Shown here: one piece after another, positions 17,982 through 63,916 of the stretch
How the letters are laid out: each line of letters begins with the position of its first letter
Position numbering within the stretch: the stretch's first letter is position 1
Assembly (NCBI GenBank): GCA_013334865.1
Contig: JAAXWS010000011.1
Span: forward strand, 1 to 64,000
Source of the DNA: Chlorobiaceae bacterium
GTDB lineage: Bacteria; Bacteroidota; Chlorobiia; Chlorobiales; Chlorobiaceae
Reading direction: 5' to 3'
DNA: 64,000 nucleotides
Notes under the pieces: model-generated
Databases searched by the model: none
Told to the model about the DNA's origin: nothing
Seen by the model: only the letters and a program-made list of their open reading frames with translations
Translations under genes and position numbers: made by a program

Positions 17982-18247
17982 TTTGAAGTAATGTCCTTTG
18001 AAATATAAAGCGCGCATGCCCTTAAAGTCCGAGATAATACTAAAATTGCAAAAAAAGCTCATTGACTCCATCATCACAGTTTTACGCCGACAGGATTTCT
18101 TTTGCAGATTGGTATATTGACGACAGTTGATCACTGGAATCGCGTTCGCTTTCCCGGCATCCGTCCGCTCCTCTCCGGATCCCTCCCGGAGCTTAAGAGG
18201 CATATATGAACCCATATACTTGTCAATCACCAACAGGAGGTGCTCTT

Positions 18248-18607
18248 ATGTCGTCCTATTTGAATATCTCCCTATCAGCGTTGCTGATGGCGTCGGCCTC
18301 GATTGCATTTTCGGCACCGGGGTTGGCCGCTTCGAAAGCCAGTATCAGGCAAAATGCAGACGTCGATCCCAGGGGCCAGGTTCTTTCACTCTCCTGCGCC
18401 GGTTGCCATGGTACTGACGGAAAGAGTGCCGGCATTATTCCGTCTTTCTACGGCAAGTCTCCGGAATACATCGAAAGCGCACTCAGGGATTTCAAGGCCG
18501 GCGAGCGGGCCTCGACGGTCATGATGCGTCATGCCAAAGGCTATACGGACGATGAGATTCATCTGATCGCCCAATATTTCGGAACTGTCTGGGGAAAAAA
18601 CAAATAA
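18248..18607 (+). CDS. fccA: Flavocytochrome c sulfide dehydrogenase, cytochrome subunit
   Basis: A 119-residue periplasmic c-type cytochrome that accepts electrons from the FccB flavoprotein during sulfide oxidation. After a Sec signal peptide (about residues 1-27, AxA-like end GLAAS) there is one haem motif, CAGCH, at residues 50-54 and a candidate distal Met in [12 protein letters not shown] single haem fits the small Chlorobium-type subunit rather than the dihaem Chromatium form. The start at 18248 follows AGGAGGTG by 5 nt; an in-frame ATG at 18206 lacks such a site and would spoil the signal peptide. fccB follows after 13 nt. Confidence 0.88.
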
Positions 18608-18620
18608 CCGGGAGGGCTCA

Positions 18621-19913
18621 ATGAGCACGAATATTTCACGAAGGGATTTCAACAGGCTGTTCGCCACCGGTGTCGCCGGGGCGGCCTTGGGGATGTTCGG
18701 AACCTCGGGGGCCGCCTTTGCTGCCGGTTACAGGGTCGTGGTGATCGGTGGTGGATTCGGTGGTGCAGCTACGGCCAAATACCTGAAAAAACTCGACCCG
18801 TCGCTCTCGGTAACTCTGGTTGAGCCGAAGGCTGCATATGTTACCTGCCCGTTCAGCAACTGGGTGCTTGGCGGCCTCCGGACGATGAAGCAGATCACGC
18901 AGACCTATGCCACCCTCGCACGCCGCTACGGCATACATGTCGTGCCGGATACGGTGGTCGGCATAGACACGGAAAAGGGGACCGTCAAGCTCAAGGGCGG
19001 CAGGGTGCTTGGGTACGACCGTCTTGTCGTCTCCCCCGGTATCGATTTCAAATGGTCGGCGATCGATGGCTACAGTGAGGCCCTCGCTGAATCGAAGATG
19101 CCGCATGCCTACCAGGCCGGACCGCAGACCCTCCTGCTTCAAAAACAGCTGCACGCCATGAAGAACGGCGGCACGGTCCTGATCTGTCCTCCCGGGAACC
19201 CGTTCCGCTGCCCTCCAGGCCCTTACGAACGCGCCAGCCTTATCGCGTATTACCTTAAGCAGCACAAGCCGAAGTCCAGGGTCATCATTCTCGATCCGAA
19301 AGACAAGTTCTCGAAACAGGGCCTTTTCAACAAGGGATGGAAGCGCCTCTATCCTGAGATGGTCGAGTGGCGCGGACCTGCCGCCGGCGGCAAGGTGCTC
19401 TCTGTCGATGGGGGGGCGATGTCCGTCCGGACCGACCTTGGCGAGCTCAGGGGTGATGTCATCAATATCATTCCTCCGCAGAAGGCCGGCCTCATCGCGT
19501 TTACTGCCGGCCTGACCGATGACAGCGGGTGGTGCCCCGTCAATCCAACCTCTTTCGAGTCGACGATCCACAAGAATGTCCATGTGATCGGCGACGCCTG
19601 CAAGGCTGGTGCCATGCCGAAATCCGGATTCGCCGCGAGCAGCCAGGGCAAGGTGGCCGCTGCCGCCATCATCAGGCTGCTCAGGGGGAAGGAGCCTGTC
19701 GCTCCGTCGCTGGTCAATACCTGCTACAGCCTGATCGGGAAGGAGTACGGCGTCTCTGTTGCCGGTGTCTATCAGCTCGCTCCTTCCGGGATCGTCGAAA
19801 TCCCCGGATCGGGCGGCTTGACGCCGATCGACGCTTCTGATGACCAGCTCATGCAGGAAGCGATGTTTGCGGAATCCTGGTACACCAACATCGTCAGGGA
19901 TATCTGGGCCTGA
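18621..19913 (+). CDS. fccB: Flavocytochrome c sulfide dehydrogenase, flavoprotein subunit
   Basis: A 430-residue FAD protein that oxidises sulfide in the periplasm and passes electrons to FccA. A twin-arginine signal (SRRDF, residues 6-10, cleavage near AFAA at about 35) implies folded export with FAD. The dinucleotide-binding loop GGGFGG is at 43-48. Cys76 (YVTCPF) corresponds to the Cys that carries FAD covalently in flavocytochrome c. Further cysteines in [14 protein letters not shown] and [10 protein letters not shown] fit the redox disulfide. A GGGAGGG ribosome-binding site precedes the start. The CoxF/SoxF branch is close, but pairing with the cytochrome supports FccB. Confidence 0.92.
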
Positions 19914-59717: not shown

Positions 59718-60476
59718 ATGGCCAGAGACATTCCGATCAGTGAACTACGCCCCTGCGACGTGCTGCTCTACCACGGCGACTCGGTCGTATCGCAGGTTAT
59801 CCAGTGGTTTGACGGCACCGAGTACGGCCACGCTTCGATCTACGATGGCGAGATGGTCGTCGAAGCCATTGCGGAAGGTGTGGTTACGAACGATGTGGCT
59901 TCTTCGGCCGCCGGCAGCCTCTTCGTGGATGTCTGGCGGATGAGGAAGGACGGGCATTTCATCGGATCGCCCGGACTGCCCGAAGGCCCCGTGCTTGACG
60001 TTGTCGCAAAGTATTCCTCAGAGGGCGGCCGCTACGCCGCCGAAGAGCTCCTTCTGCTTGCGCTGCTCTGCACCACCCGCCGCCTGCCGATGCCGTTCCT
60101 GAGGTGGGCCCTCGACCGCGCCTCCTCATGGCTCGAGGAGCTGGTTGACGAGGAGCGCGAACCCATGATCTGCTCCGAGCTGGTTTTCCGCTGCTTTTCG
60201 GAAGCCGGAGGCGAGTACTATCCTCGAATCAGGGGTGTGGACATCAGGGCGAAGGTCGAGACCCTGCACATGCCCGGTCAGCCGCTTCGCCGGATGTCGC
60301 CGGCGGATCGCGAGGTCGCGGAGTTCCTCGACCGGTATGCGGCCGCCCGGAGCATGGGGTCGCGTGACCGGCTGCTCATGGCGGCCGTCGAGGCTGACCC
60401 GAATTTCATCACGCCCGGCGACCTGAAGCGGAGCCCTGACTTCACGAAGGTCGGCCGGTTGCGGTTGCCGTCATGA
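59718..60476 (+). CDS. Permuted NlpC/P60-like (YiiX/YycO-type) protein
   Basis: A 252-residue protein from the ATG at 59718, which follows GAAGGAGGG by 7 nt. The fold is a circularly permuted papain-like NlpC/P60 domain: His in [15 protein letters not shown], with an acidic partner following, and the Cys in [13 protein letters not shown]. The family includes YiiX and YycO amidase/hydrolase-like proteins; substrates are mostly unknown. There is no obvious signal peptide, so it appears cytoplasmic. Its stop codon overlaps the stop of the convergent Get3/ArsA gene by 6 nt. Confidence 0.78.
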
Positions 60477-61679
60477 CACCGGCTGCGGCACCCCCTCCTT
60501 CTTCCTGAACTCGATGACCAGCCACTTGTCTTCGTAGCCGGCGCCGGCGACCCTCATGCCGGCGAGGAAGGTCGGCAGGACCACCCCTTTCTGGTAGTTG
60601 CCGATCCTGACGGTCATCGAGTCGCCGATCTGGGTGACGTTGGCCTCCATGCGGTTGTCCGACACGAAAGGCAGGCGAAGCTTCATCAGGTAGTGCCCAT
60701 CGCCCTCCTTCCTGATGTCGACGTGCTCCTCGTGGTAGAAGATGTCCAGGGGGTTCCGCCCGCCGTACACCGTCTCGCCGACCTTTCCGAGCATCTCCAG
60801 GCCGAGCACCTCGGTGCGGAACAGCGGCACCTGCGTGATCGGGATGGGCGCGAACGCGGTCTCGATCTGCTCGATGTATTTTTTCTGGATCTCCTTCCAG
60901 CCCTTGAAATACTGGCCGTCCACGTCGTCCATGTAGACCCGGTTGATGACGATCTGGTCGACGGTGATGTTGTAGAGGTTCAGGTAGGTCAGCGCCCGCA
61001 TCGACTCCTTGATCACCATCTTCTCCGGGTTCATGACCAGGCGGACGGTTGTTTTCGATCCGTCGGAGAGCAGTTCGATGATCCCCTCGACCGAAGAGAA
61101 GAGGTGGTCGACCTGGTCGTACACCTCGGTTTCCGGCACGAAATCGTGCAGGCGTCCGATCCGTTTCGACAGCGGCCGTATCACCGGCTTGACCACGTAC
61201 TTCTCGAGGTTCCGCATCAGCTTCAGCATCCATCCGAAGGTCTCCGGGATGGAGAGCAGCCGCAGGGTCTCGCCGGTGGGGGCGCAGTCGACCACCAGCA
61301 GGTCGTACTCGTTCGACTCGTTGTAGCGCTTGATGTAGGAGAGGGAGAAGAGCTCCTCCATGCCGGGCAGCACTCCCATCTCCTCGACGTAGATGCCCTT
61401 GATGCCCTGCACCTCCATGAGGTGCGCGAAGTGCTCGCGGACGATCTCCCAGTTGAGCGACAGGTCGCCATAGACGCTCACCTCCTGGCCATAGAGGTTT
61501 TCGGCGATCTTTACCGGCGACGGGCCAAGCTCGATGTCGAAGGAGTCTCCCAGGCTGTGGGCCGGATCGGTGGAGATCACCAGGGTCCGGTATCCCATGG
61601 CTGCGGCCCTGACTGCGGTCGCTGCCGCGATGGAGGTTTTGCCCACGCCGCCTTTGCCTGTGAACACGATGTTTCTCAT
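60471..61679 (-). CDS. ArsA/Get3-family ATPase with C-terminal alpha-crystallin-like domain
   Basis: A 402-residue P-loop ATPase. The deviant Walker A is [11 protein letters not shown] at residues 5-15, and switch I is [13 protein letters not shown] single ATPase unit is followed by about 80 residues ([19 protein letters not shown] and onwards) like the HSP20/alpha-crystallin domain found on Get3d-type proteins of cyanobacteria and plastids. No arsenite cysteines or other ars genes are nearby, so arsenical export is unlikely; membrane-protein targeting or chaperoning is a better guess. The start follows AAGGAGG at 61679; the frame is open 15 codons earlier. Confidence 0.85.
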
Positions 61680-62021: not shown

Positions 62022-63479
62022 ATGGCAAAGGTCGTCGTATTAGGGGCTGGTGTTGCAGGTCACACCTGCGCCTCGTTTCTCAAGAAGAAACTGGGCAAGG
62101 CTCATGAGGTGGTGGTCGTCAGCCCGAACAGCTACTACCAGTGGATCCCGTCGAACATCTGGGTCGGCGTCGGCCAGATGACCATCGACCAGGTCCGCTT
62201 CAAACTGCAGAAGGTCTATGACCGCTGGGGGATCGTCTTCAAGCAGGCCAAGGCTGTATCCATCTATCCTGAGGGCTATCCCGGGTATGATCGCGCATAT
62301 GTGACGATCGAGTACACCGAAGGCGAAAAAGCAGGGCAGACCGAGGCCGTCGACTACGATTACCTCGTGAACGCCACCGGCCCGAAGCTCAACTTCGAGG
62401 GAACCGAGGGACTGGGCCCGGACAAGAACAGCTTGTCCGTGTGTACTTACAGCCATGCGGCCCACGCATGGGAGAAGTTGCAGGAGAGCATCAGGAAGAT
62501 GCAGAACGGCCAGAAGCAGCGATTCCTCATCGGCACCGGACACGCCATGGCTACCTGCCAGGGCGCGGCATTCGAGTACATCCTGAACGTGGCCTACGAG
62601 ATCTCGAAGCGCGGCCTGAGCAAGATGGCCGAGATCACCTGGATCTCCAATGAATATGAAGTCGGAGACTTCGGCATGGGCGGCGCCTTCATCAAGCGCG
62701 GCGGCTACGTCACCCCGACCAAAGTATTCACCGAGTCGATCCTGGCCGAATACGGCATCAAGTGGATCCGCCGGGCAGGCGTCTACAAGGTCGAGCTGGG
62801 CGTCGCACATTACGAGACCCTCGGCGGCGAGATGAAGACGCAGGAGTTCGATTTCTCCATGCTGATTCCCTCCTTCTCCGGCGTCGGCCTGACCGCGTTC
62901 GACAAGAACGGTGCCGACATCACCGAGAAGATGTTCCTGCCGAACAAGTTCATGAAGGTCGACGCTGACTACACCGCCAAGCCCTTCGAGCAGTGGTCGG
63001 CCGCTGACTGGCCGAGCGTCTACCAGACGCCGATGTACGACAACATCTACGCCGTCGGCATCGCGTTCGCTCCTCCGCATCCGATCTCCAAGCCGCAGTC
63101 GAGCCCCAGCGGGCGCCAGATCTTCCCGACCCCTCCCCGCACCGGCATGCCGTCGGGCGTCATGGGCAAGATCGCCGCGCTTAACATCGCCGAGCAGATC
63201 AAGGGTGGCCACAAGGAGCACCACCACAAGGCCTCGATGGCCCGCATGGGCGCAGCCTGCATCGTTTCCGGCGGTTTCGGTTCCTTCGACGGCCTCGGCG
63301 CCTCGATGACCGTCTACCCGGTCGTACCCGACTGGGACAAGTACCCGGAGTGGGGCCGCGATATGAACTACTCGGTGGGCGAAGCCGGCCTTGCCGGCCA
63401 CTGGCTGAAGTTCATCCTGCACTACCTCTTCTTCCACAAGGCGAAGGGGTATCCGTTCTGGTACCTGATCCCGGAGTGA
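62022..63479 (+). CDS. sqr: Sulfide:quinone oxidoreductase (Chlorobi type)
   Basis: A 485-residue membrane-associated flavoprotein that oxidises sulfide and reduces quinone. The FAD loop VVVLGAGVAGHTCASFLKKK is at residues 4-23, and the second nucleotide-binding region is LIGTGHAMATCQGAAFEYI. Several cysteines (in HTCA, SVCTYSH, ATCQGA and AACIVSGG) include candidates for the sulfide/polysulfide pair. The C-terminus has an amphipathic, aromatic segment (WLKFILHYLFFHKAKGYPF) for membrane binding. It is longer than type I SQR and resembles the Chlorobium subgroup; the exact type is not assigned. A 51-codon gene follows after 56 nt. Confidence 0.87.
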   Translation: MAKVVVLGAGVAGHTCASFLKKKLGKAHEVVVVSPNSYYQWIPSNIWVGVGQMTIDQVRFKLQKVYDRWGIVFKQAKAVSIYPEGYPGYDRAYVTIEYTEGEKAGQTEAVDYDYLVNATGPKLNFEGTEGLGPDKNSLSVCTYSHAAHAWEKLQESIRKMQNGQKQRFLIGTGHAMATCQGAAFEYILNVAYEISKRGLSKMAEITWISNEYEVGDFGMGGAFIKRGGYVTPTKVFTESILAEYGIKWIRRAGVYKVELGVAHYETLGGEMKTQEFDFSMLIPSFSGVGLTAFDKNGADITEKMFLPNKFMKVDADYTAKPFEQWSAADWPSVYQTPMYDNIYAVGIAFAPPHPISKPQSSPSGRQIFPTPPRTGMPSGVMGKIAALNIAEQIKGGHKEHHHKASMARMGAACIVSGGFGSFDGLGASMTVYPVVPDWDKYPEWGRDMNYSVGEAGLAGHWLKFILHYLFFHKAKGYPFWYLIPE

Positions 63480-63535
63480 CCGCAAGGCTCCGGCAAGCGA
63501 CATGAACAAGTCTGAAACTCAATAATTCGAGAACC

Positions 63536-63691
63536 ATGAGCAATAAAATCAAGGCATACTACGACGAGGCCTACCCGCCGGTCCCCGACAAGACCACGCT
63601 TTTCTGGCGCAAGTTCGTTCCGTGGCAGATCATCAGGTTCTTCATCCTGAACCTCAAGATCATGCGCATCGTCGTCGGCGGCCACTCCTGA
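63536..63691 (+). CDS. 51-residue hypothetical protein downstream of sqr
   Basis: A short frame from ATG 63536 to TGA 63689-63691. The product starts MSNKIKAYYDEAYPPVPDK. Residues 24-47 (WRKFVPWQIIRFFILNLKIM onwards) are an aromatic and hydrophobic stretch rich in positive charges, likely a membrane-bound helix. It follows sqr by 56 nt and is itself followed by a strong hairpin, so it seems to be the last gene of an sqr transcript. It resembles no family I can name. The codons are strongly GC-ending and coding-like. A small accessory or anchor for SQR is the simplest idea. Confidence 0.65.
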   Translation: MSNKIKAYYDEAYPPVPDKTTLFWRKFVPWQIIRFFILNLKIMRIVVGGHS

Positions 63692-63721
63692 CTCCCGACC
63701 AGCCTCCCTCTTCTTCGATTT

Positions 63722-63743
63722 GCCCCCGGCTTCTGCCGGGGGC
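63722..63743 (+). terminator. GC-rich hairpin ending the sqr transcript
   Basis: GCCCCCGGC (63722-63730) and GCCGGGGGC (63735-63743) form a 9-bp stem with loop TTCT. An outer CTCTTC/GAAGAG pairing extends the structure. No T-tract follows. Confidence 0.6.
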
Positions 63744-63916
63744 TTGAAGAGCCACCTCTCGCCCATCCTCCAGCAGGAAAGCAATCCGACGAAATCCTTT
63801 TCAACACGTTCGATGGACATGATGTGCGTTTCGCCCGTCGTCCCGCAACCGTTCGAACCGTATGCTGTCTACAGCGGTCTGCGGCCAGCGACGAAGATGT
63901 CGCCTCAGGCTGTTCT

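Follow-up and report, generated by a model that had tools for sequence, protein, structure and literature searches.

A short gene directly downstream of sqr, on the same strand, encodes a genuine 51-amino-acid protein, and every complete SqrD-class sulfide:quinone reductase (SQR) gene that we checked, in several bacterial phyla, carries a version of it. We propose that SqrD has in this protein a small subunit of its own, which would be co-transcribed with it and whose helix would lie in or at the membrane and complete, in trans, the membrane anchor and the wall of the quinone entrance. We give this reading a probability of about 0.57.

A conserved small gene behind sqr

The window, which is the whole 64,000-nucleotide stretch of Chlorobiaceae DNA analyzed here, places the short frame between sqr and a strong RNA hairpin (Table 1). 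An earlier note on this DNA had described the frame as coding-like and as lying before a strong hairpin; its conservation and its dN/dS confirm the first point, and a z of -3.67 confirms the hairpin. Intact homologues are present in about 35 of the 61 nearest genomes (E < 1e-14), and among these 61 a homologue occurs wherever a close relative of the window SQR is present. Scanning GTDB contigs gave 127 places with relatives; the 80 that we retained all come from Chlorobi and Bacteroidota. For 80 distinct coding sequences (44 codons each, 698 unsaturated pairs), the median dN/dS was 0.062, and in Chlorobaculum-like sequences the substitutions at codon positions 1:2:3 stand at 2056:770:6304. Stops interrupt the five other frames in 47-80 of the 80 sequences, and the region has no match in Rfam. 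We conclude that the small gene is under strong purifying selection. The earlier note had raised two grounds for doubt, a frame that is not conserved and a lack of synonymous-site bias, and both are excluded by the intact homologues and the low dN/dS.

Table 1. Features of the window and of related loci in other genomes and plasmids
Feature	Position	Strand	Size	Remark
sqr, sulfide:quinone reductase	62022..63479	+	485 aa	predicted SqrD/CT0117 (type IV) kind
Intergenic gap, sqr to small gene	63480..63535	+	56 nt	
Small gene	63536..63691	+	51 aa	ATG start, TGA stop; MSNKIKAYYDEAYPPVPDKTTLFWRKFVPWQIIRFFILNLKIMRIVVGGHS
Strong RNA hairpin 3' of small gene	63712..63750	+		faces convergent gene
Get3/ArsA-type ATPase	60471-61679	-		divergent, upstream of sqr
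FccA/FccB-like pair	18206-19913	+		cytochrome c and flavoprotein genes
Second SqrD-like SQR with 38-aa companion	L145, L146, L147, L148			genomes G031, G029, G033, G024
Relic of small gene	L150 1730-1830	-		G034:C37
Broken SQR and small gene	L197 3010-3530	+		G350:C37
DUF2892 proteins beside non-SqrD SQR-like genes	L221 3213-3416; L222 1658-1861 and 3400-3591

A frame this short, with a strong hairpin alongside, could in principle be no gene at all but a chance ORF, an RNA element or a leader. The dN/dS of 0.06, the third-position bias, the survival of the frame in very divergent sequences and the lack of an Rfam match reduce the probability of such a reading to a negligible level. Together with the stops in the other frames, they also rule out an antisense gene.

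The hairpin has a 9-bp GC stem at 63722-63743 and probably marks the end of the transcript. We only infer that it acts as a terminator, because it has no clear U-tract; it is also absent from the list produced by the terminator scan. At the other end of the locus, we considered the divergent Get3/ArsA-type ATPase as a partner that might insert a tail-anchored protein. It lies upstream in Chlorobaculum-like loci only and is absent beside the SQR/small-gene pair in Chlorobium and Bacteroidales, so it has no general part. Elsewhere in the window, cytochrome c and flavoprotein genes resemble FccA/FccB of flavocytochrome c sulfide dehydrogenase and would make up a second system for oxidising sulfide. 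Inspection of the sequence showed that the window's other distant SQR match, at 18.6-19.9 kb, is the flavocytochrome c sulfide dehydrogenase subunit adjoining its cytochrome.

The enzyme belongs to the SqrD class

SQRs are treated as monotopic enzymes made of a single protein. The window SQR aligns over its full length, at 87% identity, with the SQR at 112 kb of genome G003 and is its orthologue. We take the G003 gene to be CT0117 of C. tepidum TLS. Judged by sequence, the window enzyme is of the SqrD/CT0117 kind, CT0117 being SqrD, a type IV SQR (PMC4584964, PMC3368242, PMC4288042). SqrD is responsible for most of the SQR activity of C. tepidum in normal growth (PMC4288042, PMC3368242), and the class is also conserved in Sulfurimonas (PMC4584964).

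Structures have been reported for SQRs of types I, II and V, with none for type IV as of a 2022 source (PMC9666304). Using Foldseek on a model of SqrD, we found that the best matches were the SQRs of Acidithiobacillus ferrooxidans and Aquifex aeolicus (type I folds, TMt 0.84-0.88). Cysteines 141, 179 and 412 (model-sequence numbering) are invariant in 41 rows and align with the sulfide-oxidising cysteines of solved SQRs. Beyond the last conserved cysteine, the model consists of strands and one long helix (456-473), and the chain ends at residue 485.

The small gene follows the enzyme across phyla

The small-protein profile (A1), for which homologues had been collected on peptide similarity and not on gene neighborhood, and the SQR were searched separately in one set of 395 genomes from the phylum. 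The small gene lies downstream on the same strand at 106 of the 108 SQR matches (about 40% identity or more, fragments counted), at a distance of 4-282 nt and most commonly 35-60 nt. Both remaining matches are SQR fragments at contig ends. Among the more distant SQR-like genes of these genomes, 0 of 23 have the small gene. The earlier note had suggested looking downstream of the sqr paralogues, and these counts show that the link between the small gene and SqrD-class enzymes is near-absolute. Matches to the small gene that are not linked to an SQR are contig-end copies or short relics. The relic in genome G034 is a frameshifted small gene without its SQR, which comes after a DUF2892-like gene, a methyltransferase gene and another SQR-like gene, and G367 holds a second unlinked short relic. 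In G350 neither the SQR gene nor its small companion is intact any longer, a case of joint decay of the pair.

Several Chlorobium genomes encode an SQR paralogue of about 40% identity that has its own divergent 38-aa companion (MRPTSFQKFLMRCRIYQFWRFIVLNIKILKAVHHEKTS and close variants). In the two-SQR genomes G024, G029, G031 and G033, a different version of the small protein stands behind each SQR, so the version depends on the enzyme that it accompanies, not on the host species. This second SqrD-like SQR of Chlorobium is possibly the enzyme named 'SqrX' in PMC4288042.

The pairing extends beyond the phylum. Three SQRs of >50% identity were found in 72,556 plasmids, in Ca. Thiodictyon syntrophicum, Sulfurovum mangrovi and Marivivens, so that gamma- and alphaproteobacteria and Campylobacterota are all represented. 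Each is followed by a CDS of 52-53 aa with the same core, and a search of all 72,556 plasmids with the Thiodictyon small protein gave matches at those three places only. The remark in the earlier note that genes of this size are commonly missed in annotation holds in part: these three homologues are annotated, each as 'hypothetical protein', and two of them bear late-series locus tags. Viral contigs contained no relative of the window SQR. Around two plasmid SQR-like genes of greater distance, the neighbors are DUF2892 genes instead; such small membrane proteins flank non-SqrD SQR-like genes (Table 1), which suggests that short membrane proteins may go with other SQR-like enzymes too.

Pairing is thus near-perfect across phyla. 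Of the earlier proposal of a dedicated SQR subunit, the part that stands is that the gene is dedicated to SQR and not to a locus, as the pairing across phyla and the two co-resident paralogues demonstrate. There is thus strong support for a protein dedicated to SQR; its place as a subunit is a proposal, set out below.

Sequence and predicted shape of the small protein

The window protein comprises a Tyr/Pro-rich arm (residues 1-19), a short helix (about 20-26), a kink at Val28/Pro29, a long helix (about 28-47) and the tail GGHS. The helices are predicted by AlphaFold2 on a close relative of 52 aa (L133), in which they span residues 20-27 and 29-48, equivalent to about 20-26 and 28-47 in the window protein, with pLDDT of 89-95 at residues 21-40. 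The conserved residues are Q31, R34, N39, K41 and R44; Gln31 is invariant and the Arg, Asn and Lys are near-invariant. We describe the family core as Q31-x2-[RK]34-[FYW]35-x2-[LI]38-[NS]39-x-[KR]41, with apolar residues at all intervening positions. The window protein has Q31 followed by IIRFFILNLK, in agreement with this motif, and one member (L198) has Met at the [RK] position. Longer versions have the arm Y-x2-E-x-YPP-x-P, and in other lineages RKH or GGHGGTR takes the place of GGHS at the C-terminus.

The basic and aromatic helix described in the earlier note is borne out by this core, and its hydrophobicity is borderline for a transmembrane helix (best 19-residue hydropathy 0.9-2.1 in the family). 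Net charge ranges from +5 to +9. The hydrophobic moment of the helix showed no excess over shuffled sequence. Searches of Pfam, NCBIfam, PHROGs and PDB sequences with the window protein gave no match, and none of 23 family members matches Pfam or NCBIfam.

A proposed subunit at the membrane interface

In most SQRs the C-terminus carries a pair of amphipathic helices, the first of which adjoins the quinone channel or site (PMC9666304). Because the SqrD model has only one C-terminal helix, we propose that the small protein is the missing second helix. The small gene would be co-transcribed with sqr, and the long helix of its product (about 28-47) would sit in or at the membrane beside the C-terminal membrane helix of SqrD. 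Gln31 and the stripe formed by Arg34, Lys41 and Arg44 would face lipid head groups or SqrD, and the Tyr/Pro-rich arm might clamp the body of the enzyme. In this way the small protein would supply, in trans, a second C-terminal helix that serves as anchor and as wall of the quinone entrance. More tentatively, and at less than even odds, type IV SQR may be an obligate two-protein enzyme in which the second membrane helix was split off as a subunit of 38-58 aa and spread jointly with the enzyme through Chlorobi, Bacteroidota, Proteobacteria and Campylobacterota.

We modeled the two proteins together by folding the SQR and small protein of L133 as one read-through chain, which is a modeling device only; this relative was used because the gap in the window is out of frame. 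The helix block had means of 76-86 and was equally confident when folded alone, so the linked chain, which came with no interface score, carries no weight either way on binding. Mutual information between the proteins gave top pairs scattered across the SQR, from 33.6 effective sequences, and likewise located no interface; aligning the small protein and the SqrD tail with the C-termini of solved SQRs gave no signal. Against a helix in trans stand the type VI SQRs, which have one helix and for which we know of no partner. Chan et al. are said to have found, in 2009, that recombinant CT0117 expressed without the small gene is active as an SQR. If so, the small protein is not strictly needed for catalysis, and attachment, stability, targeting or quinone access would be likelier roles than chemistry.

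As a maturation or targeting factor, the small protein might instead assist FAD loading, membrane insertion or placement at the periplasmic face and be no part of the finished enzyme. Strict pairing and selection fit this as well, SqrD has no obvious N-terminal signal peptide and enters its Rossmann fold at once (MAKVVVLGAG), and a charge of +5 to +9 is often seen in membrane-targeting peptides. Many chaperones, however, serve more than one protein or work in trans from a distant site, and one subtype-matched copy per SQR gene fits a stoichiometric subunit better, so we consider such a factor rather unlikely. The pairing and the size would also suit a regulatory micropeptide, an inhibitor or activator that tunes, for example, the affinity of SqrD for quinone or sulfide. 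SqrD expression is reported to be constitutive (PMC4584964), which would make post-translational control possible, but the core is constrained like a structural element with no regulator-like variability, and the chances of this role appear low.

Less probable again is that the small membrane protein acts independently of SqrD and has only its transcript in common with it. The orphan relic in G034 and the conjectural nature of physical contact with SqrD speak for it; that orphan copy is frameshifted, however, and the pairing persists across phyla, on plasmids and with the second paralogue. The earlier note had also suggested, as one option, that the protein passes on polysulfide. A carrier of sulfur or electrons (polysulfide, persulfide) from SqrD would fit its position beside a sulfide-oxidising enzyme and the C-terminal His of many versions. 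Because there is no Cys in the window protein and none conserved in the family core, and with the His missing from several versions, this role is largely refuted and very improbable.

Relation to known small subunits

The proposed SqrD subunit has parallels in respiratory enzymes. CydX is the small subunit of cytochrome bd. CcoM, a small subunit of cbb3 oxidase, is given as 36 aa (PMC10433244). Like the SqrD companion, these are tiny (35-50 aa) hydrophobic helix proteins that are tied to one quinone or respiratory enzyme and easily overlooked in annotation. They differ in being transmembrane helices of multi-subunit integral complexes, whereas SQR is a monotopic enzyme regarded as consisting of one protein, and searches of Pfam, NCBIfam and PHROGs found no sequence relation to them. 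The helix pair of type I SQR (SqrA) from A. aeolicus and A. ferrooxidans offers a membrane-end helix on the same enzyme fold, and the small protein could be a functional counterpart of the SqrA C-terminal helix, although the SqrA helices are encoded in cis and have no detectable sequence similarity to it. The fold matches of the SqrD model also include YjlD (9a63_B). In the YjlC-YjlD pair of Bacillus subtilis, a small partner of a type II NADH dehydrogenase, a related flavoprotein fold likewise has a partner protein, but YjlC, a soluble DUF1641 protein, is larger than the SqrD companion and has an unrelated sequence. DUF2892 proteins are likewise short membrane proteins beside SQR-like genes; they belong to another family with another sequence and adjoin other SQR types.

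Our search, which covered openly accessible papers, found no earlier description of a small SqrD companion. A universal companion would alter how type IV SQR is cloned, expressed and modeled, and would offer a starting point for explaining how a monotopic enzyme that lacks a signal gets to its side of the membrane and to the quinone pool. Members of the family can also be used to tell SqrD-class genes from other SQR-like genes. Because the complete SqrD-class genes checked all carry the small gene, it is probable that an enzyme regarded as a single protein has a partner at the membrane interface that had been overlooked.
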